In this document: piece after piece, positions 2,784 to 30,486 of the stretch
Position numbering within the stretch: the stretch's first letter is position 1
How the letters are laid out: the number at the start of each line of letters is the position of its first letter
IMG/VR virus record: IMGVR_UViG_3300033153_001485
Coordinates: 1-30,632 of that record
Source of the DNA: a virus
DNA length: 30,632 nt
Strand: one strand, 5' to 3'
The notes under the pieces: model-generated
Databases searched by the model: none
Told to the model about the DNA's origin: nothing
The model's input: the letters and a program-made list of their open reading frames with translations, nothing else
Made by a program: the position numbers and the translations under genes

Positions 2784-3196
2784 TACGCTCCATATCCAAA
2801 CAATGAAGCATCAAAATCTTCATTGCCGGCGTTAAAATGTTCAACTGTTACTGTTACAACATCTCCAGGGCCTAATTCGTAAGGCGCTCCGGTATAATCA
2901 AAATCCTTATTAAGATCCGGCCCTGTCCTTTTAGTCCATACTGTTGTGCCATTTACTTTAAGCTTGTACTTTGCGTAATTTGTTCCGGATACAGCTGCGA
3001 TTACTAGATTCTCAAAAGTTGTTGCTGTAAAAACTTGCGTAATCAATGTTGTTTCCGTCAATGGCGCTATCCCAAGTGTACTAGCTTCCTTGAAAAACTT
3101 TGTCAAAGAGATGCCCTGTACAATAACATAGAGCGGATCTAATGGCGTTCCTGTTACCGGCGGCTGCGATACAACTCTTCTAAGTTCAACTGTCAT
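2783..3196 (-). CDS. beta-sandwich-type virion accessory protein (137 aa)
   Basis: ATG at 3196 sits 2 nt after the previous stop, and the Shine-Dalgarno is weak (GGGCC), so translation may be coupled. The C-terminal 80 residues contain YKLKVNGTTVWTKRTGPDLN and, later, YELGPGDVVTVTVEHF. This is a jelly-roll-like pattern of alternating strands ending in an aromatic-rich tail (DFDASLFGYGA). Such small sandwich proteins occur among phage decoration or adhesin proteins. I see no catalytic residues. The assignment to the virion is inferred from context. Confidence 0.65.
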   Translation of the reverse strand: MTVELRRVVSQPPVTGTPLDPLYVIVQGISLTKFFKEASTLGIAPLTETTLITQVFTATTFENLVIAAVSGTNYAKYKLKVNGTTVWTKRTGPDLNKDFDYTGAPYELGPGDVVTVTVEHFNAGNEDFDASLFGYGA

Positions 3197-3198
3197 AT

Positions 3199-3531
3199 TT
3201 AAGGCCCATTGTAGAAAAACTCCTGGATCACTTTATCATAGCGTACATAATTGAGCGTTGCCCGATTAGTCCATGCTGTTTCAAATTCAACCGGCGTATA
3301 GTTTCCGCTCTTCCCGGAGTTATAGTTAAAGTGATAAGTTAAAACTGATTCAGCAGCCGGATCAACAATCCGTACAATCATGTACAGGCCCTTCTCGCCG
3401 TTAATATCTCCAAGCGCTATGAAGGCATGATACTCCGGGTTTACTCCATTATCATCTCTTATGGATTGAAAATCAACTGTGCCATAAGAGCTGAGCTGTA
3501 CCCTCTGCTGCATATCATTGATCTGGCCCAT
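3199..3531 (-). CDS. hypothetical virion-region protein (110 aa)
   Basis: The ATG at 3531 has AAAGGA 9 nt upstream and follows the coiled-coil gene by 3 nt. The sequence MGQINDMQQRVQLSSYGTVD leads into a mixed fold that includes YHAFIALGDINGEKGLYMIV, and it ends in an aromatic segment (DKVIQEFFYNGP). It has no transmembrane segment and no recognisable motif. The regular strand spacing and position suggest a small structural or adaptor protein. I cannot name a family. Confidence 0.65.
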   Translation of the reverse strand: MGQINDMQQRVQLSSYGTVDFQSIRDDNGVNPEYHAFIALGDINGEKGLYMIVRIVDPAAESVLTYHFNYNSGKSGNYTPVEFETAWTNRATLNYVRYDKVIQEFFYNGP

Positions 3532-3534
3532 AGA

Positions 3535-3978
3535 TTATAATCCTTTTATCTGTTTCTTTATCTCATCAAGCTTAGCTTCCTTCTCTTTGCAGATCGCTTC
3601 TTGCTTCTTGAAGTTTTCTTTAGCGCTGGCTGCTTCCATCTTAGCTTGAGCGATCAGCTGCTCTTGATCAGCTTTATAAGTGGCAAAAGCCTTCCTGTTT
3701 CTATCAAGATCATACTTACCTTCTTCAACCTTTGTTGCTAAAGCTGCGTTCTCCGTCTTGATCCGGCGTGCTTCATTGGCTTCCTTAATAGGCTTCTCCA
3801 AATTATCCAAAGATCTTTCCCGATCCGCAAGCTCCGCTGCCTGTGCATCCAGGCTATTCTTTAAGATCCGGGCGCTGGCTGATAGCTGATTAGCTTCCGC
3901 TGTTTTCTGCTTAGCTTCTGCAAGCTCTGTATTGAGCGCATCCACTAGGCCCTGTGCTTTAATAAGTAAATCTTTCAT
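3535..3978 (-). CDS. long coiled-coil protein (147 aa)
   Basis: ATG at 3978 with GGAG 8 nt upstream. Nearly the whole protein is a charged alanine-rich coiled coil, from DLLIKAQGLVDALNTELAEA near the start to KEAKLDEIKKQIKGL at the end, with no proline except in a short break around NLEKPIKEANE. It lies immediately after three C1q-like domain genes. A structural stalk or a tail-fibre-associated rod is the simplest reading, but no homologous family is recognised. Confidence 0.7.
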   Translation of the reverse strand: MKDLLIKAQGLVDALNTELAEAKQKTAEANQLSASARILKNSLDAQAAELADRERSLDNLEKPIKEANEARRIKTENAALATKVEEGKYDLDRNRKAFATYKADQEQLIAQAKMEAASAKENFKKQEAICKEKEAKLDEIKKQIKGL

Positions 3979-4002: not shown

Positions 4003-4512
4003 TTATGTTCCTATTAGAAATCCTTGAAATCTTGTTGCTGCTGGGCCACCACCATCATTTACTTTTACTACGCCCGTTGTTCCTGTATAAAGAACTTCAA
4101 CTTTGCAAGTATCGCCGGCTGTCATATAAGCAGTAGCGGCAACAGATTGATAATAAAAAGCAATAGCATTTAACATACTAAAATCATCAATTCCAGCTAT
4201 ATAATCCCCTACAAATAACTGTCCTGTCAATACTAACCTAACTAGAAATTGCGAGCAATTTGTTTGTATGCCACTCCATTGGATATTTGCCTTAAAGTCA
4301 TAATATCCATTTACCGGAGCTGTAAAAGAATAGGTTGTTGTATTGAAATTACTGCCTATGTCATAAGTTTCTTGACTAAATTGAACATCTTGAGCAACGC
4401 CACTTGAAACAATTAGATTAGCGCTGGATTTATACGCTTGAAACCCAACAAAAGGCGGCGTTGATCCTGGAGTAATTGTTCCTTCACTTGCTATATCCCC
4501 TGTTCGTACCAT
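4003..4512 (-). CDS. C1q-like jelly-roll protein (third paralogue, 169 aa)
   Basis: ATG at 4512, GGAG 7 nt upstream. After a short Gly/Pro linker (GTITPGSTPPFVGFQAYK) the rest forms one domain with the C1q-like signature YDIGSNFNTTTYSFTAPVNG followed by YYDF. This aligns with YDVGGYYDNTTYRFTPLVEG and FDTKGYYNTGTYRFTPLVAG in the two neighbouring proteins. The end (RFQGFLIGT) also matches in pattern. Bacterial and phage C1q-like domains trimerise and often bind surface ligands. I infer a fibre tip or decoration role. It is the most divergent of the three and lacks the upstream linker modules of the others. Confidence 0.75.
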   Translation of the reverse strand: MVRTGDIASEGTITPGSTPPFVGFQAYKSSANLIVSSGVAQDVQFSQETYDIGSNFNTTTYSFTAPVNGYYDFKANIQWSGIQTNCSQFLVRLVLTGQLFVGDYIAGIDDFSMLNAIAFYYQSVAATAYMTAGDTCKVEVLYTGTTGVVKVNDGGGPAATRFQGFLIGT

Positions 4513-4523
4513 AATCTTTCTCC

Positions 4524-5393
4524 TTATCTAATTAGGCATCCAGATAATACCATATTATCCCCTTGCTCTGTGCTTGCGCCAAACTGCGTTTGATAGGCAT
4601 AAGCTTCTATATAATCCGTTGTTCCATTCATTTCAACAAAGCCAGCAGCTACATTGTTATAATGGAAACCGCTTTGCAAAGCGCCAGAAACATTATTTTT
4701 GATCTGAGAAACAGCGCCGCTACCATTCCTAACTATTGTTGTAATCATTCTTGTACTTGCTGCCCAAGCGCCATCATTAGTCATTTGCCAAGATGCTTCA
4801 ATGTAGTACAATCCGGCAACCAAAGGCGTAAAGCGATATGTTCCGGTATTGTAGTATCCTTTAGTATCAAAAGTTTCACTATCGCAAGTGAAGTAAACAA
4901 CAGTATTATCGTTTAAGGATATTGTTCCGGTACTAAACGCTCTGAAAGCAACCGCATCATTTGTATCGGCGGAAGCTGGCGTTTGATATGTTGGAAGCGA
5001 TGCTGCTCCGGTTGAAGTGATTACATCGCCGCTCGTACCTGGCGCAAAGCGTACCCAGCTGGATCCGTTGTAATAAAGAAGATCGCCGGTAGTTTGGCCA
5101 GATATATCCAGGCCGCTTGCGTTGCCGTTCCATGTTGCTCCGGTATCAACAACAACAGCTCGCCATGTTCCGGAGATCGTTCCATAGCTTGAAATATCCA
5201 GCGTGGCAACTGTTGTGCTTGTGGCTGTTACATCATCCGGGATCACAATCTTGCCGTTGTTATCATAGATCGTAACAGAAACATATTGGCTATTAAGATT
5301 ATGATTTAATGCAATGGCTGATCCGCCTACTGTAATATCTTGAATGTAAGCCGGAGAGCCTAGATTGATTCCTGTTATCGCTGAAGTTCCCAT
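4524..5393 (-). CDS. modular fibre-like protein with C1q-like C-terminal domain (289 aa)
   Basis: ATG at 5393 with GGAG 7 nt upstream. Residues about 15-95 form a beta module (YVSVTIYDNNGKIVIPDD ... SSYGTISGTWRAVVVDTGAT) that also occurs in the 825-aa tail fibre. A linker with YYNGSSWVRFAPGTSGDVI and a GASLPTYQ motif follows, typical of phage fibre connectors. Residues about 147-288 form a C1q-like jelly roll (KGYYNTGTYRFTPLVAGLYY). It is probably a homotrimeric receptor-binding or accessory fibre protein. The shared module suggests it was assembled from parts of the main fibre gene or docks to the same partner. Confidence 0.8.
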   Translation of the reverse strand: MGTSAITGINLGSPAYIQDITVGGSAIALNHNLNSQYVSVTIYDNNGKIVIPDDVTATSTTVATLDISSYGTISGTWRAVVVDTGATWNGNASGLDISGQTTGDLLYYNGSSWVRFAPGTSGDVITSTGAASLPTYQTPASADTNDAVAFRAFSTGTISLNDNTVVYFTCDSETFDTKGYYNTGTYRFTPLVAGLYYIEASWQMTNDGAWAASTRMITTIVRNGSGAVSQIKNNVSGALQSGFHYNNVAAGFVEMNGTTDYIEAYAYQTQFGASTEQGDNMVLSGCLIR

Positions 5394-5404
5394 TGTTTAT
5401 CTCC

Positions 5405-5692
5405 TTAGTAAGGTAAAGATTCTTTCCAGCTATCGTATTCTTCTTGCGAGAAGCCAAGCTTCTGCATAAACCTTGCATCAAGATCATCCTTCTCTGCTTT
5501 CCTTGCGGCCTTCTTAGTAGCCTTATCCGCTTCTGCTGCCGGCCATGCAGCTTCAAGCTCTGCATCTGTTGGCTGCGGATCCGGAAGATTCCACTCAGTA
5601 ATCGTTTGAATATCGCCGGATTGTTCAACTCTCCAAGAAACATAACGATCTACATCCGGGAATAAATACATCAAGGTTGTGTTTGTATCCAT
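5405..5692 (-). CDS. small protein with a PxPTDxELEAAW segment (possible XkdW/tail-chaperone-like)
   Basis: ATG at 5692 with GGAG 8 nt upstream; 95 aa. The first 50 residues are beta-like (YLFPDVDRYVSWRVEQSGDI) and lead into WNLPDPQPTDAELEAAWPAA. That segment resembles the short domain found in XkdW-like and other tail-fibre-associated phage proteins. The rest is a charged helix (ADKATKKAARKAEKDDLDAR) ending KESLPY. Its place between two C1q-like fibre genes suggests an assembly chaperone or fibre partner. The family link is by eye and uncertain. Confidence 0.65.
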   Translation of the reverse strand: MDTNTTLMYLFPDVDRYVSWRVEQSGDIQTITEWNLPDPQPTDAELEAAWPAAEADKATKKAARKAEKDDLDARFMQKLGFSQEEYDSWKESLPY

Positions 5693-5710
5693 TTCAAAAT
5701 CTCCTTCATT

Positions 5711-6265
5711 TTATACTGCGTTTATAAGGGATGCGCCGAATGTAGTGTACCAAGCATTAGCAGTTTGCGTTTGCGCTCCGAAGCTATTGGCATATAATAT
5801 CATATCAAGATAATCGGTTGCTCCATCCATATAGAAAACGCCAGCATATTCCGTTGTTATATCCATATTTACCTGCGTAGCTCCAAACTTCTTTACCCCT
5901 CTGCCTTGCGTTAAGCTTCCGTTATGTCTAGCGTAACACATTACTCTTGCATTAACGATTCTTGAGCCATCATCATCCATATAGGCCGAGCCATAAACAT
6001 AATAATATCCTTCTACCAGCGGAGTAAATCTATATGTTGTGTTGTCATAGTAACCGCCTACATCGTAAATCTCGTTGTTTGCCGGTAAAACAACTTGCGT
6101 ATTATCTGGCAATGATGTTGTCGTGTTTACATTCGCAAAGAAGCCAATGAAATTTGGATCTCCACCGCCAGCTGCTTGAAATGTTGGCTGCGTTCCTGGC
6201 CCATTGGAAGTTAAAACCTGGCCTACTGTTCCATCCTCGTTAGGTATAATATCCCCATATTCCAT
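5711..6265 (-). CDS. C1q-like jelly-roll protein (first paralogue, 184 aa)
   Basis: ATG at 6265 with GGAG 8 nt upstream, just after the tail fibre gene. The N-terminal 35 residues are a fibre-type linker (GTVGQVLTSNGPGTQPTFQA) similar to the linker of the 289-aa protein. Residues about 38-182 are a C1q-like domain with DVGGYYDNTTYRFTPLVEGY and a conserved late segment DGATDYLDMILYANSFGAQT that matches NGTTDYIEAYAYQTQFGAST in the 289-aa paralogue. It is probably trimeric and surface exposed, acting in adsorption or decoration. No enzymatic motif is visible. Confidence 0.8.
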   Translation of the reverse strand: MEYGDIIPNEDGTVGQVLTSNGPGTQPTFQAAGGGDPNFIGFFANVNTTTSLPDNTQVVLPANNEIYDVGGYYDNTTYRFTPLVEGYYYVYGSAYMDDDGSRIVNARVMCYARHNGSLTQGRGVKKFGATQVNMDITTEYAGVFYMDGATDYLDMILYANSFGAQTQTANAWYTTFGASLINAV

Positions 6266-6277
6266 AATCTGATCTCC

Positions 6278-8755
6278 TTATGCTATTGGATAGAAAAATT
6301 GTCCATAAACATTTCTTGCGCCTGACGCTGTCCAAAGAACTGTGCTTTGTCCGGCATTTCCTAGTCCAAGATTGCATATATTTGTTCCGCTATTTATCCA
6401 TATACTTCCGTTTCCAGAAGCCGGAAAAGCTCCATTATCCCAAGTGTGTCCTAATGAAGTATACATTGATCCACCGGAATTACTATTAAATGGAAGTGTA
6501 AATGTAAAATTTGTTCCTGTTCCTGTTCCATTAAGATTAAATTCAACATAACATACCTTGCCAATTACATAATAATTTATTCTTTTTATGGAAGATGGAT
6601 TCATTCCAACTACTGTTGATGTTGGCCCATAATCTATCCAAGCTGTTTGGAATTGATCTTGTGCTACCCAATTTGCTCCGTCATATACGGCAATATCATC
6701 TGTTGCCTGTCCGGCAAGAGATAGATCGCTGGCAACTGATGAGTTAGTTGTACCAACATCCAATATAACGATATTCCAAGTACCGGATCTCGCTCCATAG
6801 CTGGTAAGATCAACTTGCAGATTATCGTTATCCGTAAGGGTAATATCATCTGGCATGATCAGCTTATCGCTGTCATTGAATATCTGTACCTGGCAATACT
6901 TATGCCCTAAGTTGTGAGCAAAGGAAGGCGTAAGGCCAACTCCGCTAGTAAACGCCTGGTAGAATGATGTTGTACTAACAACCTCTATCCCACGCATATT
7001 AAATATAAATCCGGTAGTGGTAGAATCTGCGATCAATACCGGCTTTATTACTGCTCCCTCTGTGGCCGGCGCTGTTGCTGTGATCGCTCCAGCTGTTTCG
7101 CTAAGGAAGTGAGCTTCGCCGGCTGTAAGGCCAGATAATCCTGTGATCCTTCCGCCAAACTGTACTGTAAAATCAGCTCCGGTTGCTGCCGTAACAACTC
7201 CAATAGATTCTGCTGTGGATGCTGCGGAAGCATCGGCTAATACATAGATCGTGCCGTTATGATAGATCCATTCCCCAACTGAGAAAGCATTGGCTTGCGT
7301 AACATCATGATCAAGCGTTGCTCCGCCGCCGCCGCCAGGGATCGTAACTGTTACAGCGCTGCCAACATTTGTTGCCGTTACTCCGGCTCCAACAAAATCA
7401 ATAGATGATACTGCTGCTGTTAGCTGTACGCTCTCATCCAAGATCTCAACTGATCCGCCGCCAGCGCCTAGATCTGCAATGGATTGCGCCGTTACTCTCT
7501 TTAGATTATCTGAATCATCAACATCGGCGATCAATACCTCATCAAGAGATGCTACTGTTCCGGCTGTGGTATTGGCAATATCAACAACAAGATTTCTAGT
7601 TGCTGAAATATCTCCGCCGCCAGCTAGTCCGGAAGTATTAACAGCTGTTGCTATTGAAACTGCGCTGTGATCCGTATGCTGTAAGAGTACATAATTTAAT
7701 AAGGTATTATGATCAACTGCTGCTTCATTAACTGTTAGCGTTATGAAATCTCCGCCATCTGCAACAGCTATTGAGCTTCCGGCCCGGATAACTCCATCGG
7801 CTGCCGTTGCTCCGATGTAATCTCTCGTTGCTGCCGCATCAACTTTAACTTGATCATTCGTGATGGAAGCGTGTACATGGAGCAGATCAGCGTTGGATCC
7901 ATCCGTTAAGGTTTCCATCTCAACTGCCGTAATATCTGTTGCGCCATCATTGGCTGTAATAATAGAATAATCAGCTGTAACATTTAATGTGCGATCAGCC
8001 TGTATCGTTCCGCCGCCGCTCAAGCCTGTGCCAGCAATAACTGATACAGCGCTATGATTGATATGCTCTAAGGCAACATAGTTGAGAAGCGCATTATGAT
8101 CAACAGCGCCGGGTATAACCGATAATGTAACAAAATCTCCGCCATCCGTCTTTAAGATCGTTCCATCTGTACGCAATACGCCAACTCCGGATGTTGCGCC
8201 TAGATAATCCGGTACTGCATCAACATCAACTTGAAGCTGGTAAACAAGATCCGGATAATTGGTAAGGCCATCCGCTGCATCATTCCAGCCGATAGGCCGG
8301 CCAGCTTCCGGTATAGGTAAGGTTGTATCAACTCCGGTAACAGTAATAGGCAAGACAAGCGCCCGGCCAAGTAATTCTGTAATCTGCTGATCTATCATAG
8401 TGCCTAGATCATAATCATCCTCAACTGTTTCCGCCGGGAAAGCATTGTAATCCGCATAGTTGCTCTCTTGAGTTTCATCATATTCCCGGTAAAGAGTGAT
8501 CTCATAATCTGCGCTCTGAGCATCATTAACAGTTATGGATCCGCCAACACCATCAGTATCAATCGCAACTGTATATCCCGATGCTCCGCCGTCATTATAT
8601 ATAAGCTCTGTTTCAATATCAGTTGTTGTATCAAGAATAACTGCTTTGATAGCTTCTGGAAAATCTATTAAGGCCCGGAAGGTAAAAGAGAATTGCGTTG
8701 CAATGCCATTCATTGCTTGCGGAGCCATCTTATTTGTTGTGCTTAATACTGTCAT
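6278..8755 (-). CDS. tail fibre protein with T7 gp17-like N-terminal attachment domain (825 aa)
   Basis: ATG at 8755 with GGAG 7 nt upstream, 12 nt after the giant ejection-protein gene. Residues about 1-155 follow the T7-type tail-fibre N-terminal domain (ATQFSFTFRALIDFPEAIKA ... DYDLGTMIDQQITELLGRAL), which attaches the fibre to the tail tube. The shaft contains two copies of a known fibre repeat at residues 218-235 and 347-364 (VDHNALLNYVALEHINHS; VDHNTLLNYVLLQHTDHS), followed by glycine-rich GLxGGG turns. A beta module at about 585-660 is shared with the 289-aa protein. The last 130 residues form a terminal knob with TGTNFTFTLPFNSNSGG and a C-terminal QFFYPIA. It is the probable receptor-binding fibre. 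No endosialidase-type or depolymerase motif was recognised. Confidence 0.88.
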   Translation of the reverse strand: MTVLSTTNKMAPQAMNGIATQFSFTFRALIDFPEAIKAVILDTTTDIETELIYNDGGASGYTVAIDTDGVGGSITVNDAQSADYEITLYREYDETQESNYADYNAFPAETVEDDYDLGTMIDQQITELLGRALVLPITVTGVDTTLPIPEAGRPIGWNDAADGLTNYPDLVYQLQVDVDAVPDYLGATSGVGVLRTDGTILKTDGGDFVTLSVIPGAVDHNALLNYVALEHINHSAVSVIAGTGLSGGGTIQADRTLNVTADYSIITANDGATDITAVEMETLTDGSNADLLHVHASITNDQVKVDAAATRDYIGATAADGVIRAGSSIAVADGGDFITLTVNEAAVDHNTLLNYVLLQHTDHSAVSIATAVNTSGLAGGGDISATRNLVVDIANTTAGTVASLDEVLIADVDDSDNLKRVTAQSIADLGAGGGSVEILDESVQLTAAVSSIDFVGAGVTATNVGSAVTVTIPGGGGGATLDHDVTQANAFSVGEWIYHNGTIYVLADASAASTAESIGVVTAATGADFTVQFGGRITGLSGLTAGEAHFLSETAGAITATAPATEGAVIKPVLIADSTTTGFIFNMRGIEVVSTTSFYQAFTSGVGLTPSFAHNLGHKYCQVQIFNDSDKLIMPDDITLTDNDNLQVDLTSYGARSGTWNIVILDVGTTNSSVASDLSLAGQATDDIAVYDGANWVAQDQFQTAWIDYGPTSTVVGMNPSSIKRINYYVIGKVCYVEFNLNGTGTGTNFTFTLPFNSNSGGSMYTSLGHTWDNGAFPASGNGSIWINSGTNICNLGLGNAGQSTVLWTASGARNVYGQFFYPIA
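7664..8104 (-). repeat. duplicated shaft module inside the tail fibre gene
   Basis: Two diverged 54-nt segments at 8051-8104 and 7664-7717 encode VDHNxLLNYVxLxHxxHS and are 387 nt (129 codons) apart in the same frame. Flanking sequence is also related (YLGATSGVGVLRTDG versus YIGATAADGVIRAGS, and GGDFVTLSV versus GGDFITLTV). This indicates an old tandem duplication of a shaft unit. Identity is much clearer in protein than in DNA. Confidence 0.8.
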
Positions 8756-24456: not shown

Positions 24457-26111
24457 CTTAGGTTAGATGCTTTCCCTTCTGTTTGTGCTGCTTCCGCTGC
24501 GTTCTTATCTGCTTGCGTTGCATCCTTGCCGATCTGTGATGCTGCGCCGGCCATTTGCATCTGCTGCATCTGCTCTTGCATCTTAGCTTTGGCCATCCGG
24601 ATCTCGCCAACTTCCTTGTTATCAAAGATCATGGCTGCCGGAGCATTGGTAATTCCCCATAGCTCATCAATCGTTGCATCAGCATTGATCTTATCAAGCG
24701 CTTCCGGTTTATATTGTGCGATCTGTCCGGCGATTGTCATAGCATTAGAGAAGTTATCAAGCTCTGATTGGCGCTGTGCTTGAGCAAGGCGGCCAACAAA
24801 CTTAACATCATACTCCGGATTCATCAACATCTCTTCCGGCATCTGCGGCAACCGGCCTTTACGCCAGAGCATTGCAATCGTTCTTTCAACAAGCGGCTGT
24901 AATACATCGCTCATATACCGGCCAACTGCCGGGCCTAACATCGTCATTTGCTCATTGGCTCGCTGCATCACTTCCGGTACTGTCATTTGCTTTGTGATAT
25001 TCTGGAAGTTAATGAAGGCTCCCTTAAACATCATGTTGCCGGCCTTCTCTGCATAATACTCAAGCTCCGCCTGGCCGATAGCAAGGTTGCCATAGTTGCC
25101 GATTGGAGATATATCTTTTGTTGGATCTAACTTTGTGCGCTTATAAATGTTTACTGCTCTAGGATTGAAATTCAAAGGCGCTAAGAATCCGCTATCCGGT
25201 ACGGCAATAGGCGGATCTGTTTGTTTCATAGCTGCTCTAAGGATCGTATCAGCCATCGTATTCAACATTCGTACCCAGGGCAAGGCTTTCATCGCCGGAG
25301 AGAAGCCGTATGTAATGCGTGGCCGCTTGTAAAAGCGATGCGCAACTGCCGGCATCTCGTTGAATCCATCTTCCATCATGATCTTTTGGCTCTTAACTTC
25401 TACCCATACCCCTCGTACAGCCATGTTATCCTTCGTACTCTTGCCGTATTCCTTTAATACTCTAGGGCCAAGATAAAGGATGTACTCATATTTCTTATCC
25501 GGATCTCTTTTATTCTTGAGCGATTCAATAATAGCAACATCAACTTTATCTCCAAACTTCGTGAAGGCTTGCTCAGCTGTATATTCAAAAGGTACATAAA
25601 ACTCTAAAGGCTTCTCCCTGGCATCTTCTGTAATGTAAGTTGATCTGATCGGCAAGTTATAGAAGCGTACATCATCTTCCGGATCCTCTTCCAGCATCAT
25701 AACTGATGTACCATACACGCCGGAGCTTTTATAAAAGATCGGCATCTGATTGTAGAAGTTGGATCTATTCAGCACAAAGTTTACTTCATCGGCCACATCT
25801 TGCATCCATTGGCGTACCGGCTGCTTATCTCTAAGCTTCTTATCCGGATGATCAAGAGAAAACCATTTGGAAGCTGATGGCGTTAAGTAATTTGCTACGC
25901 CGGAAGCCAGAATGTCAGCAAGCTCAAGAGAAGTAGAATCAAGCAAATAAAGATAATCAAGTTCAGTACCGGGATAATAGCTTCTGTTAATGTTTTCAGC
26001 TTCAACATAAAAGTAATCATGCAGCGTTTGGTAGTAGGTATCAAAGTTGCTCCTTTGGCCTTTGAGCGTGCCTTTATGCTTTACGATCTTCTCTGCGCTA
26101 AGTTCTTGCAT
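24453..26111 (-). CDS. portal protein (head-to-tail connector, 552 aa)
   Basis: ATG at 26111 with AAGGAG 8 nt upstream, in a TAATG overlap with the acetyltransferase gene. The N-terminal region contains the hallmark LDYLYLLDSTSLELADILAS followed by GVANYLTPSASKWFSL, typical of T7-like head-to-tail connecting portals. Further family-like parts are VYGTSVMMLEEDPEDDVRFY (clip and wing region), ITYGFSPAMKALPWVRMLN and PVIQ-type helices around MTVPEVMQRANEQM. The last 50 residues are a Gln/Met/Ala-rich barrel helix (AKMQEQMQQMQMAGAA). Twelve copies form the DNA channel at one vertex, contacting terminase during packaging and tail tubular protein A afterwards. Length agrees with podoviral portals of about 500-560 aa. 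Confidence 0.92.
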   Translation of the reverse strand: MQELSAEKIVKHKGTLKGQRSNFDTYYQTLHDYFYVEAENINRSYYPGTELDYLYLLDSTSLELADILASGVANYLTPSASKWFSLDHPDKKLRDKQPVRQWMQDVADEVNFVLNRSNFYNQMPIFYKSSGVYGTSVMMLEEDPEDDVRFYNLPIRSTYITEDAREKPLEFYVPFEYTAEQAFTKFGDKVDVAIIESLKNKRDPDKKYEYILYLGPRVLKEYGKSTKDNMAVRGVWVEVKSQKIMMEDGFNEMPAVAHRFYKRPRITYGFSPAMKALPWVRMLNTMADTILRAAMKQTDPPIAVPDSGFLAPLNFNPRAVNIYKRTKLDPTKDISPIGNYGNLAIGQAELEYYAEKAGNMMFKGAFINFQNITKQMTVPEVMQRANEQMTMLGPAVGRYMSDVLQPLVERTIAMLWRKGRLPQMPEEMLMNPEYDVKFVGRLAQAQRQSELDNFSNAMTIAGQIAQYKPEALDKINADATIDELWGITNAPAAMIFDNKEVGEIRMAKAKMQEQMQQMQMAGAASQIGKDATQADKNAAEAAQTEGKASNLR

Positions 26112-26569
26112 TATTTAATCTCCTTCATAAATTGGATCTCAAAGGGCCGGTATCCCATACGCTCATAAAATCTTGTGAGCTTTTCTTTGCCGCTATTGCA
26201 CATTAAGCACATAACCACGCATGAGCATCCTAAGTTTTTTGCAGCTTCTTCAAAGTATTGGAGTAGCGCCCGGCCATTAGCTCTGTGATCTTTCTCCACA
26301 TACCACATTACCTCTTGCAGCGCCAGATCTCCATTAGTCATATTCTCTTGTTTAACGCCGGCAATAACGCCAACAACCTTCTGATCAACAACAAGGAAGA
26401 AACTGATCTCCTTTAATATCTGTGTCATTTGTACCATGCGCTCGCCTTCAACCGCAAGGCCGTACTCTGCTAAGCTCTCATCGCTAAAAGCTTTGCATAG
26501 CCTTTTAATATCCGGATCATAAGATGGCTGATAGCGTGTGATCCTAAACTCTTTTATTGCTGTTGTCAT
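26111..26569 (-). CDS. GNAT-family N-acetyltransferase (152 aa)
   Basis: ATG at 26569 in a TAATG overlap with the preceding gene. The fold order fits GNAT: an N-terminal segment MTTAIKEFRITRYQPSYDPD, strand FLVVDQKVVGVIAG, strand plus acetyl-CoA loop EVMWYVEKDHRANGRALLQY, helix FEEAAKNLGCSCVVM and the final KLTRFYERMGYRPFEIQFMK. The loop R-A-N-G-R-A is a variant of the canonical Q/RxxGxG/A motif. Similar genes lie next to terminase and portal genes in many podoviruses, where the substrate is unknown; host or virion protein acetylation are both possible. It is one of two GNAT-like domains in the window. Confidence 0.85.
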   Translation of the reverse strand: MTTAIKEFRITRYQPSYDPDIKRLCKAFSDESLAEYGLAVEGERMVQMTQILKEISFFLVVDQKVVGVIAGVKQENMTNGDLALQEVMWYVEKDHRANGRALLQYFEEAAKNLGCSCVVMCLMCNSGKEKLTRFYERMGYRPFEIQFMKEIK

Positions 26570-27691: not shown

Positions 27692-27911
27692 CTGTTTTAG
27701 CTTTCTCATCAATGCTCTCCCATCGCTTGATCGCTTCCATAAAGTTTAGCTCCGGTACAATCTGGCTGCCGTATTTGCCGGTTGTTGCGTGAGCGCCTAA
27801 GCGTATTGCGCAAAAGTAAACTAACCATTTAGGCATCTTCCATGCGATCTTCATCATCCATCGCTCTTTGATCTTATTGTATTCGTGTTTGATCTCCCAC
27901 ATTCGTATCAT
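27648..27911 (-). CDS. conserved-looking hypothetical protein with CAIRxGAHATTGKYG segment (87 aa)
   Basis: I choose ATG 27911 in a TAATG overlap with the terminase stop; a GTG at 27920 and an ATG at 27902 are alternatives. The N-terminal 25 residues are basic (MIRMWEIKHEYNKIKERWMM). The centre MPKWLVYFCAIRLGAHATTG and KYGSQIVPELNFMEAIKRWE resembles a small protein often found beside terminase in T7-like podoviruses. A single short amphipathic or weakly hydrophobic helix (WLVYFCAIRLGA) is visible. The function is unknown. The last 44 nt overlap the 43-aa ORF. Confidence 0.65.
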   Translation of the reverse strand: MIRMWEIKHEYNKIKERWMMKIAWKMPKWLVYFCAIRLGAHATTGKYGSQIVPELNFMEAIKRWESIDEKAKTDGKEIKANLDPEVC

Positions 27912-29266
27912 TATCTCCACCCGGCTATCTTAAATAGGTTGCCTTCTTGTTGCCCGGCTACTCTTGTTGCCGGAGTTTTGAAATCTTCATTTTCCTCTAT
28001 CTTCTTGCCAATAAACTGCGATGCGTAATAGGCCATCATGATTGAATCAGCTGGATCCGGAGATTTGAAGCCTTTGCTGCGCATGATCTCTTTGCTGATG
28101 ATCATCTTCTGGCCATTGCTCTTGTGCGTGTACATTACTGTAAGCAATGAATCAATCGTCATTTGCGGCAGCTGGCCCATGTATCCCATCTGGATCAGAT
28201 CCGCAAGCTTATGAAACCACTCTGTTTTAACATTTCCATAGCTGTTGAAGCTCTCAACATGATCTTTGCCGCTCCATCCGCCATGAAATTCATTGATGTT
28301 ATACTTCAATTCACTCAATCTATCGCATACGCCTACCAATCCATCCGCATCAATGGCAACAGAATCAAGCTTAAAGCGTGTCATTAAGTCCACTATGCGC
28401 CCGGTAGATTCCATCAAGTTCTTTTTACCCCAGCGCTCAATGTGCTTTACATCCCATTTCAGCGGCCCTCGCTTCTGTAAGATCGTTGCTACGCATTTAT
28501 CTTCGCCGTACCGGGCCAGATCCACGCCCATTACCATCTCATGCGCTCCGCATCCAATAAACTCTGTCTTTGCGCAATCATCAAGCTTCTGCTCAGTAAA
28601 TAGGAAGTTATCAGCTTCCTCTAAAGGATCTCCCAGCCAAATATGGCCGTAATCATCCGGCCTGTTGGCCTTGCATAGCTCAGCTTCATGAATCAACTCC
28701 CGGCTGCAATAAGGATTCTCAAAGTAATCTATGTGAATATGCAAGCAATCTTCACGATTAACAAACTCTTTATATACCGGATCATTCTTTAGATGCCGAT
28801 TCATTGTAAAGAAGATCTTAGCTTTGCTCTTCCGGATCGTTGGTATCAGAATATCAAGCGTATGCTGCGTGATCGCTTGCGCTTCATCAATCCAAAGTAT
28901 ATCAACTCCCTCTAAACCTTTGATGTTTACTGATCCTTGCTCCCGGAAGCCTTTGAAATTGATTGTTGTACCGGTTGCCCGATGCACAATCTTGCTGGCC
29001 TGTACTTCAAAATTCAACTGATTTTCAATGATCAAGTCTTTAAGAATCGTGTAAACTGATTCATCAATGCTCTTCTGGATCTCTCTGCCGCATACGATCC
29101 TTAGCTTAAAATGGCCGGCTAGGTATAGAAGGAAGCGAGCAACTGCCTGGCTCTTGCCGCCACCTCTGCCGCCTTCGCCTAAGAAATATCTAAAAAGATC
29201 AAACTTATCAACAAACTGCAACAGCTTTGCCGGTACATCTAACATCTTTGGAAGCTCTAAGCTCAT
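27911..29266 (-). CDS. terL: terminase large subunit (451 aa)
   Basis: ATG at 29266 directly abuts the TerS stop. It is the ATP-driven DNA packaging motor and nuclease. Walker A is GGRGGGKS (residues 32-39), Walker B ILWIDEA (123-129, catalytic Glu128), and a motif III-like IFFTMN follows. The C-terminal RNase H-like nuclease has acidic residues in VMGVDLARYGEDK (about 247), VAIDADGLVG (about 305) and SPDPADSIMMAYY (about 415). The length is normal for the PBSX/Terminase_3 type. It acts at the portal with the small subunit encoded just before it. Confidence 0.95.
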   Translation of the reverse strand: MSLELPKMLDVPAKLLQFVDKFDLFRYFLGEGGRGGGKSQAVARFLLYLAGHFKLRIVCGREIQKSIDESVYTILKDLIIENQLNFEVQASKIVHRATGTTINFKGFREQGSVNIKGLEGVDILWIDEAQAITQHTLDILIPTIRKSKAKIFFTMNRHLKNDPVYKEFVNREDCLHIHIDYFENPYCSRELIHEAELCKANRPDDYGHIWLGDPLEEADNFLFTEQKLDDCAKTEFIGCGAHEMVMGVDLARYGEDKCVATILQKRGPLKWDVKHIERWGKKNLMESTGRIVDLMTRFKLDSVAIDADGLVGVCDRLSELKYNINEFHGGWSGKDHVESFNSYGNVKTEWFHKLADLIQMGYMGQLPQMTIDSLLTVMYTHKSNGQKMIISKEIMRSKGFKSPDPADSIMMAYYASQFIGKKIEENEDFKTPATRVAGQQEGNLFKIAGWR

Positions 29267-29815
29267 CTAATGGCCTTCTTCCTCATCAATCGCATCGTTT
29301 GATACAGCATCCGGGCCGATATTAAACTTAACTTCCTTACCATCCTTCTTGATCGTTGGCATCTCAACAACTCTGTGCGTATTATCAATCTCTTGCTTAT
29401 CTGCCCATCCGTAATTGTTTTTAGCGTTAAAGATCCCTGGTACTGCTGGAATCTCGCCGCTTAGCATCCCATCCTCAATGTACTGCTCGCAAATATCCTT
29501 CGCCTTTTTTATAGTGTCAAAAAATTCCGGGCGTTCTTGATAATTTAAGAGCGTTTGCCTGGAAGTATTTAACGCAACTGCTAGGCCTGTAATACTATAC
29601 GGCTTCATGCGCCGGAGTATCCTGTTCCCTTCACGATCAAGCTTAGGGATCCATTCCATAATGAATCCGCCTTGCGGATCCTTAATAGGCTTATCGGCAT
29701 CATCAAGCGTGCGGATCTGAATCCAAACCTCTTCCCAGCAGCTCGCAAAGTAAGCTTCAACCGCTTCTTCAAGCTTTTCCGGCGTTTCAAAGATCAGCGG
29801 CCTTCCGGCTGTCAT
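29267..29815 (-). CDS. terS: terminase small subunit (182 aa)
   Basis: ATG at 29815 overlaps the preceding stop (ATGA), with GGAG 10 nt upstream. It recognises the packaging site and feeds DNA to TerL. The N-terminal AGRPLIFETPEKLEEAVEAY and the helix-turn-helix-like SITGLAVALNTSRQTLLNYQ are typical of TerS. The oligomerisation part contains FFDTIKKAKDICEQYIEDG and the frequent closing pattern GIFNAKNNYGWADKQEID. The C-terminus is acidic (DAIDEEEGH), as expected for a TerL-contacting tail. Confidence 0.92.
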   Translation of the reverse strand: MTAGRPLIFETPEKLEEAVEAYFASCWEEVWIQIRTLDDADKPIKDPQGGFIMEWIPKLDREGNRILRRMKPYSITGLAVALNTSRQTLLNYQERPEFFDTIKKAKDICEQYIEDGMLSGEIPAVPGIFNAKNNYGWADKQEIDNTHRVVEMPTIKKDGKEVKFNIGPDAVSNDAIDEEEGH

Positions 29816-30203: not shown

Positions 30204-30234
30204 AAATAGAAAAGGATCCCTTTGGATGGGATCC
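30204..30234 (-). terminator. intrinsic-terminator-like hairpin in the operon leader
   Basis: On the minus strand GGATCCC (30228-30234) and GGGATCC (30214-30220) form a perfect 7-bp stem with a 7-nt loop (ATCCAAA). TTTTCTATTT follows immediately. It lies about 110-140 nt downstream of the strong promoter and ends 1 nt before the first ATG. Unless overcome, it would stop transcription before the packaging and virion genes. Confidence 0.68.
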
Positions 30235-30244
30235 GGTTGCTCAG

Positions 30245-30264
30245 ATGTTTAGATTATTAAACAT
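30245..30264. promoter_or_regulatory. perfect 7-bp inverted repeat in the leader
   Basis: ATGTTTA and TAAACAT are exact inverted arms separated by 6 nt (GATTAT). It lies between the promoter and the terminator-like hairpin. As DNA it has the size of a dimeric repressor or activator operator; as RNA it would be an AU-rich hairpin that might pause polymerase or serve in antitermination. Confidence 0.5.
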
Positions 30265-30353
30265 TGAATAGTTCATAGTTTTAGTAGGAAGTTTGTAACC
30301 CGGTTATCCCCTCTCCGGAATGGATCAAAACGCAAACTGCGCTAGATATTCTA

Positions 30354-30382
30354 ATTATATATAGGAATTAAAGGATTTACAA
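30354..30382 (-). promoter_or_regulatory. strong sigma70-like promoter driving the virion operon
   Basis: On the minus strand a -35 element TTGTAA (30377-30382) and a perfect -10 element TATAAT (30354-30359) are 17 bp apart. Transcription should start near 30346-30348. The promoter lies in the only sizeable gene-free stretch (30204-30390) and points at the first packaging gene. Just downstream the transcript can form a small GCGCA/TGCGT hairpin followed by T residues. Confidence 0.75.
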
Positions 30383-30390
30383 GAAAAGAT

Positions 30391-30486
30391 TTACTTTTTT
30401 TGCTGCGGCGTTTCAATCTGGCAAGGACATTTGCCGGGTTTTTTCTTCGTTGTTCTGCATATAGGGCAAACAATTTTCTTACTCAT
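30391..30486 (-). CDS. 31-aa cysteine-rich mini-protein (possible zinc knuckle)
   Basis: ATG at 30486 overlaps the stop of the upstream gene (TATGAGTAA), with GGAG 4 nt upstream. The product MSKKIVCPICRTTKKKPGKC continues PCQIETPQQKK. Four cysteines in the order C7-x2-C10-x9-C20-x-C22 could bind one zinc ion, and the body is very basic, consistent with nucleic-acid binding. It lies immediately before the strong promoter, where some phages encode late regulators. Function unknown. Confidence 0.6.
   Translation of the reverse strand: MSKKIVCPICRTTKKKPGKCPCQIETPQQKK

Follow-up and report, generated by a model that had tools for sequence, protein, structure and literature searches.

Organization of the late-operon start

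The window, that is, the whole stretch of DNA analysed here, comprises the 30,632 bases of an IMG/VR virus record, and its genes of interest are all on the − strand. The late operon is opened by a 47-aa gene, followed by a small gene, the terminase subunits TerS and TerL, and then the virion genes, among which PHROG matches identified a head-tail adaptor, a major head protein and a tail protein. Residues 1-43 of the first gene product had no PHROG match. Most of the virion genes are preceded by an AGGAG-type Shine-Dalgarno; the first gene has only a weak AAAGGGA, embedded in the terminator hairpin and about 13 nt from the ATG, in agreement with an earlier note on this DNA, which had claimed that this gene lacks a free Shine-Dalgarno. 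Further along the − strand, a GNAT-like acetyltransferase gene, judged by the look of its sequence, lies just before the head-tail adaptor gene (26111-26569), and several consecutive tail-end proteins encoded at 4003-6265 look alike (e.g., 4003-4512, 4524-5393 and 5711-6265) and may serve as alternative receptor-binding parts. The features at the start of the operon are collected in Table 1.

Table 1. Features at the start of the late operon, in window coordinates.
Feature	Position	Strand	Basis and details
31-codon CPIC...CPC (zinc-ribbon-like) peptide gene	30391-30486	−	ends 8 nt before the −35
Predicted late promoter	30354-30382	−	−35 TTGTAA 30382-30377, spacer 17, −10 TATAAT 30359-30354
Untranslated leader of the predicted late transcript	30204-30347	−	aligned leaders of the window, L002 and L015
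Small GC hairpin near the 5' end	30331-30342	−	centroid fold
Conserved leader hairpin	30283-30314	−	RNAalifold on three leaders, covariation, shuffles, covariance model; 5' side AGAGGGG 30314-30308, loop AUAACCGGGUUACAAAC 30307-30291, 3' side UUCCU 30290-30286, bulged A 30285, CU 30284-30283
ATGTTTA-N6-TAAACAT inverted repeat	30245-30264	−	perfect in the window; arms 30264-30258 and 30251-30245
Predicted intrinsic terminator	30204-30234	−	stem GGATCCC (30234-30228)/GGGATCC (30220-30214), 7-nt loop, U-rich tail TTTTCTATTT (30213-30204) abutting the ATG (30203-30201); dG −12.7 kcal/mol
First late-operon gene, 47 aa	30060-30203	−	homologues in L002 and L015
Terminase small subunit (TerS)	29267-29815	−	phrog_606, E 3e-26
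Terminase large subunit (TerL)	27911-29266	−	phrog_3717 and phrog_2

The earlier note had described a TTGTAA-17 bp-TATAAT promoter, a small GC hairpin in the leader, a perfect ATGTTTA/TAAACAT repeat, and a 7-bp hairpin with a U-rich tail ending at the first ATG, and all four were found in place. The promoter matches the consensus at 10 of 12 positions, and transcription is predicted to start at about 30347, as deduced from the position of the −10 element, giving a leader of about 140 nt. When the late strand was scanned over 30.6 kb, this was the single noncoding promoter with at least 10/12 matches, and the terminator was the sole strong intrinsic terminator, the one other candidate being weak and within coding sequence. 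Dinucleotide shuffling of the 190 nt that precede the ATG gave a promoter with 10/12 or more matches in 3-5% of the cases. A terminator abutting the ATG was generated in 0/3000 shuffles of the window, 0/3000 of its relative L002 and 4/3000 of its relative L015. Over 3.6 kb, promoter-like sites numbered 8 versus 6.0 in shuffles and terminator-like sites 3 versus 3.5; because these counts are near the shuffle expectation, the motifs alone are not significant, and it is their position and conservation, not motif counts, that set this promoter and terminator apart from chance.

Conservation of the unit and of a leader hairpin

A TerL search gave 80 loci, and the diverged relatives whose contigs reach far enough for comparison were L002 and L015, with TerL identities to the window of 84% and 63%, respectively; L001 is the same phage as the window and was left out as an independent case. 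The promoter, leader, terminator and ATG of a homologous first gene were found in the same order in the window, L002 and L015, and the first-gene homologues showed 60% (L002) and 36% (L015) identity, with a conserved start codon. At the matching place, the promoter reads TTGACA-18-TATAAT in L002 and TTGACA-18-TATTAT in L015, and a similar small GC hairpin near the leader 5' end was found in L002 and was absent from L015. The earlier note had suggested looking for conserved stem pairing in related phages, and the terminator is indeed kept: its block has nearly the same letters in L002 (45/47 positions) and is in place in L015 with another stem, AGGGUCAG/CUGGCCCU, which is lengthened on both its inner and outer sides (dG −21.4 kcal/mol); despite the replaced stem, L015 has a longer U-tract and an almost equal distance to the ATG. 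On the sequences compared, the promoter-leader-terminator stretch is a real, conserved regulatory unit. Upstream of the late promoter, L002 (~3715-3730) and L015 (~3770-3784) have a common 15-mer, CAACATAATGTTTAA, which is near-palindromic and perhaps an operator.

The ATGTTTA repeat is conserved in sequence, yet one pair is broken in L002 and one in L015 with no compensatory change, and it was dropped as a conserved structure; it may be conserved simply as sequence, or act as a DNA dyad or a weak hairpin. The conserved, covarying element is instead the hairpin at 30314-30283, which the earlier note had missed. Its arms are GUGAGAG with UUCUC-A-AC in L002 and AGUGGGG with UUCCA-A-CU in L015, and all three leaders share its 7 bp, the unpaired A bulging from the 3' arm and a loop of the form RUAAC..G..CAAAAC. 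Within this set of three leaders (window, L002 and L015, all metagenomic), 21 of 21 cells hold standard pairs and 4 of the 7 pairs are altered on both sides, while sliding the partners leaves no more than 62% of the cells paired. Since the helix had been picked from the very alignment that was scored, shuffled alignments were searched for an equally good one, and it was found in 0/1000 column-shuffled and 0/1000 block-shuffled alignments. In addition, a covariance model built from the window and L002 recovered the L015 leader at the expected place with an E of 5.5e-4 in 233 kb (next match, E 1.2), a score that draws on sequence plus pairing and on a structure chosen with L015 in view. When 84 sources, TerL relatives for the most part and with early regions included, were searched with the model of all three leaders, no additional copy turned up, so the hairpin was present in one copy per phage, at the late promoter, and the lack of a second copy fits a late-only signal. 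The stem is weak alone, and minimum-energy folding of the naked leader RNAs does not predict it; a protein could stabilise it. This hairpin is newly recognised here, and the leader RNA motif matches no Rfam family.

Wider searches with DNA patterns for the leader motifs, the promoter-terminator spacing and the terminator block returned only the near-twin of the window, L002 and L015, and scans with the TerL, first-gene and YqaJ-like proteins likewise limited the leader family to these phages. A partial resemblance was observed in L014 (64% TerL identity), which has GAGG-AUAACGAU-CUUC plus a 7-bp stem with a U-tract before an ATG; its candidate stem is weak and was not recovered by the covariance model, and we regard it as a tentative further case. 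L231, with a promoter, GGATAACCG and a terminator, but between unrelated head genes, was left out as probably matching by chance, and L012 was a chance match. The L231 stretch (8491-8650, in an unrelated phage contig) shows the same order of elements, namely TTGACA-17-TATAAT, a GGCGGATAACCGCC hairpin and a strong terminator. Known phages gave no DNA match to the window, their TerL relatives had less than 32% identity among the matches listed, and bacterial genomes gave one weak match.

Early region and search for an antiterminator

The early genes were read from partial contigs of two phages, one nearly identical to that of the window (L001/L011) and one related to it (L002/L013). Upstream in L011 and L013 there is a leftward early operon with RusA (PHROG and Pfam match) and, by reading of the sequences, recombinase-like and YqaJ-like proteins, as well as a short stretch running rightward that holds a small ORF, the CPIC...CPC peptide gene and, in L011, an HNH gene. 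The rightward small ORF (L011 ~7120-7300; L013 3371-3583, − strand) has its ATG about 7 nt past a TATAAT (TATAATTTTCAACATGGC in both), suggesting a leaderless or nearly leaderless transcript, and its product, MASKTNSKPQIDKARPRLSGSHPG..., matched no family. The folds of the early rightward region were not clearly better than shuffles when structured RNA was looked for. The predicted structure of an early protein common to all three phages was of low confidence (pLDDT 69.5, pTM 0.55), with no PDB match at E <0.001.

Six-frame searches of the partial contigs L011, L013 and L132 gave no match to Q21-type (PF06530) or Q82-type (PF03589) antiterminators, nor did the partial early contigs to the AlpA type (PF05930). 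The NusG-type model (PF02357) also had no match in the three partial contigs, and the control was positive in 11 of 14 genomes. The lambda-Q model (PF06323) gave no match in the early contigs, and the control genomes gave no match either. PHROG and Pfam scans of selected ORFs found no known Q family. As to a polymerase of the phage's own, PF00940 had no match, the control likewise giving none, and by eye the ORF lists of the window and L011 held no obvious phage RNA polymerase candidate. The earlier note had thought a Q-type switch unusual in a phage with a T7-like virion layout, an argument that is weak: the head-tail adaptor and tail protein do match PHROG families, yet gene order and promoter type were judged common, a terminase-first order and a host-type promoter being frequent in short-tailed phages without their own polymerase.

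Lambda-type phages keep Q at the spot just before the late promoter, and here this spot is taken by the CPIC...CPC peptide gene, also found in L011 (7770-7865) and L013 (~3118-3249, − strand). Over 16 codons, it differs from its L013 counterpart by 6 synonymous and 0 nonsynonymous changes; no homologue was found in the L015 contig. The peptide is a possible candidate regulator. On the opposite strand, inside this gene (30415-30440, +), there is a terminator-like hairpin with a dG of −12.5 and a U-rich tail, and a similar inverted repeat is visible in L013.

Proposed regulated read-through and its alternatives

We propose, with a probability of about 0.5, that this unit is the control point of the late operon, where the host polymerase would stop at the leader terminator unless an antitermination factor, probably recruited by the hairpin, permits read-through. 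Judging from the sequence, the promoter is expected to be active with host RNA polymerase and the terminator to be an active stop for it, so that the polymerase would start at 30382-30354, make the leader and stop unaided at 30213-30204, immediately ahead of the first gene. A factor, which we infer to be a phage protein, would permit read-through late in infection, and the packaging and virion genes would be transcribed as one unit. Regulation of this read-through is the natural reading because the unit is conserved and the late strand of the window has no other good promoter or terminator, and the covarying hairpin suggests that a polymerase modification is loaded via RNA; the hairpin at 30314-30283 is probably the loading site of the antitermination machinery. 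The Q-type late switch put forward in the earlier note stands as to its layout, a conserved promoter-leader-terminator unit before the packaging and virion operon; no Q21-, Q82-, AlpA- or NusG-type gene accompanies it in the early contigs.

A leader hairpin that is needed for read-through of a leader terminator has been described for LoaP (PMC12691694). In agreement with our proposal, the LoaP/dfn leader of Bacillus velezensis contains a hairpin and an intrinsic terminator in the 5' leader (PMC12691694). However, LoaP is a NusG paralogue, and the three partial contigs have no NusG-family gene; its hairpin is of the UNCG type, in contrast to the RUAAC..G..CAAAAC loop; and it serves an antibiotic cluster, whereas the unit in the window serves a phage late operon.

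The lambdoid pR'-qut-tR' units with Q (lambda Q, Q21 and Q82) share with the window a host-type promoter, an untranslated leader, an intrinsic terminator and a late operon, and probably the dependence on read-through. A Q-like switch, in which a phage protein binds the promoter DNA between the −35 and −10, joins the paused polymerase and makes it ignore the terminator, with some other role for the hairpin, is unlikely in our view. It would account for a layout equal to that of the lambdoid pR'-tR', AlpA and GafZ targets, lambda Q, AlpA and GafZ all being described as loading at promoter DNA (PMC6606751, PMC7969949, PMC11150451). AlpA (Pseudomonas) and GafZ (Caulobacter) are proteins unrelated to Q that do the Q job at a promoter-terminator unit, and therefore missing Q families do not exclude antitermination. 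The window promoter also has a direct repeat with a 9-bp period, matching at 7/8 positions (shuffle fraction 0.016), and its −10 is followed immediately by a −10-like TAGAAT; in the window, L002 and L015, a −10-like TARART lies directly 3' of the −10 (about −6 to −1). However, the spacer repeat fades in the relatives (shuffle fraction 0.10 in L002 and 0.33 in L015), and it was dropped as a Q-binding element, standing out in the window alone, with inconsistent relatives; no convincing Q-binding element was found in the promoter spacer of the window or the relatives. Neither a Q21- or Q82-family gene nor an AlpA match was found in the partial early contigs. Moreover, lambdoid Q, AlpA and GafZ recognise promoter DNA, and a switch of this kind leaves the covarying RNA hairpin unexplained.

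The same hairpin bears on an equally improbable alternative, an unregulated attenuator or insulator, where the terminator would block upstream early transcription and pass a fixed fraction of polymerases from its own promoter with no specific antitermination. The U-tract of the window is interrupted (TTTTCTATTT), and therefore termination may be partial; since the operon has no further strong terminators, processive antitermination is not required and one leaky terminator could suffice, and no antiterminator was found in the early contigs. Against this, the terminator follows the promoter in each of the three phages, and an insulator would be oddly placed there; the conserved leader hairpin is also left without an explanation.

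Quite unlikely is a cis-acting RNA like HK022 put, which acts as RNA alone in early operons, with two stem-loops and no protein required (PMC9378689). The leader RNA would itself modify the polymerase, and a short, conserved, structured RNA near a phage promoter is indeed present, while no antiterminator gene was found in the early contigs; HK022 putL, of about 70 nt, is also located just downstream of an early promoter (PMC9378689). Nevertheless, here one stem covaries and the second inverted repeat loses one pair per relative, whereas put has two stem-loops; the hairpin occurs once, only at the late promoter, with the terminator about 50 nt downstream; and if the RNA acted autonomously, the terminator would have no use as a switch.

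ALTERNATIVES examined further comprised a leader peptide, pairing between the leader and a terminator arm, the ATGTTTA repeat, the promoter-spacer repeat and a plain leaky terminator. That the terminator-like hairpin acts after transcription, on 5' mRNA stability, processing or translation of the first gene, and resembles a terminator by chance, is very unlikely: it abuts an ATG without a free Shine-Dalgarno, and TTTATTTATG or TCTATTTATG is conserved in all three leaders, but the U-rich tail right after the stem was kept in the three phages though the stem changed, and a U-tract is needed by a terminator and not by a stability hairpin. The least probable is attenuation by alternative RNA folding or leader-peptide translation, of the trp or riboswitch style: in the window, GGGAUAACCGG can pair with the 5' arm of the terminator, CCGGAUCCC (−17.2 kcal/mol, shuffle fraction 0.016), and an 11-codon ORF (MNYSMFNNLNI, matched in L002 by another of 11 codons) ends shortly ahead of the terminator. 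In the relatives, however, the competing pairing does not surpass shuffles (L002, 0.67; L015, 0.59), conserved mutually exclusive folds were not observed, the L015 frame continues across the terminator, a well-placed Shine-Dalgarno is not apparent and no Rfam riboswitch was matched. Both the leader peptide and the trp-like pairing were discarded as conserved mechanisms, as was a long-range pairing with a 5' GUUUUG, which by eye was strong in L002 only.

The unit may represent a new class of phage late antitermination, in which a hairpin in the late leader takes the place of promoter DNA in loading an antiterminator from an undescribed family, or works by itself, to open a virion operon of at least 29 kb; we advance this possibility tentatively. 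Because its pairs covary, the hairpin lends itself to direct tests by compensatory mutation, and it offers a concrete RNA element for fishing out an antiterminator. Late antitermination is best known from the lambdoid phages of enterobacteria; with a conserved terminator gate and a leader RNA motif, and no recognised Q, in uncultured phages, the strategy would be wider.
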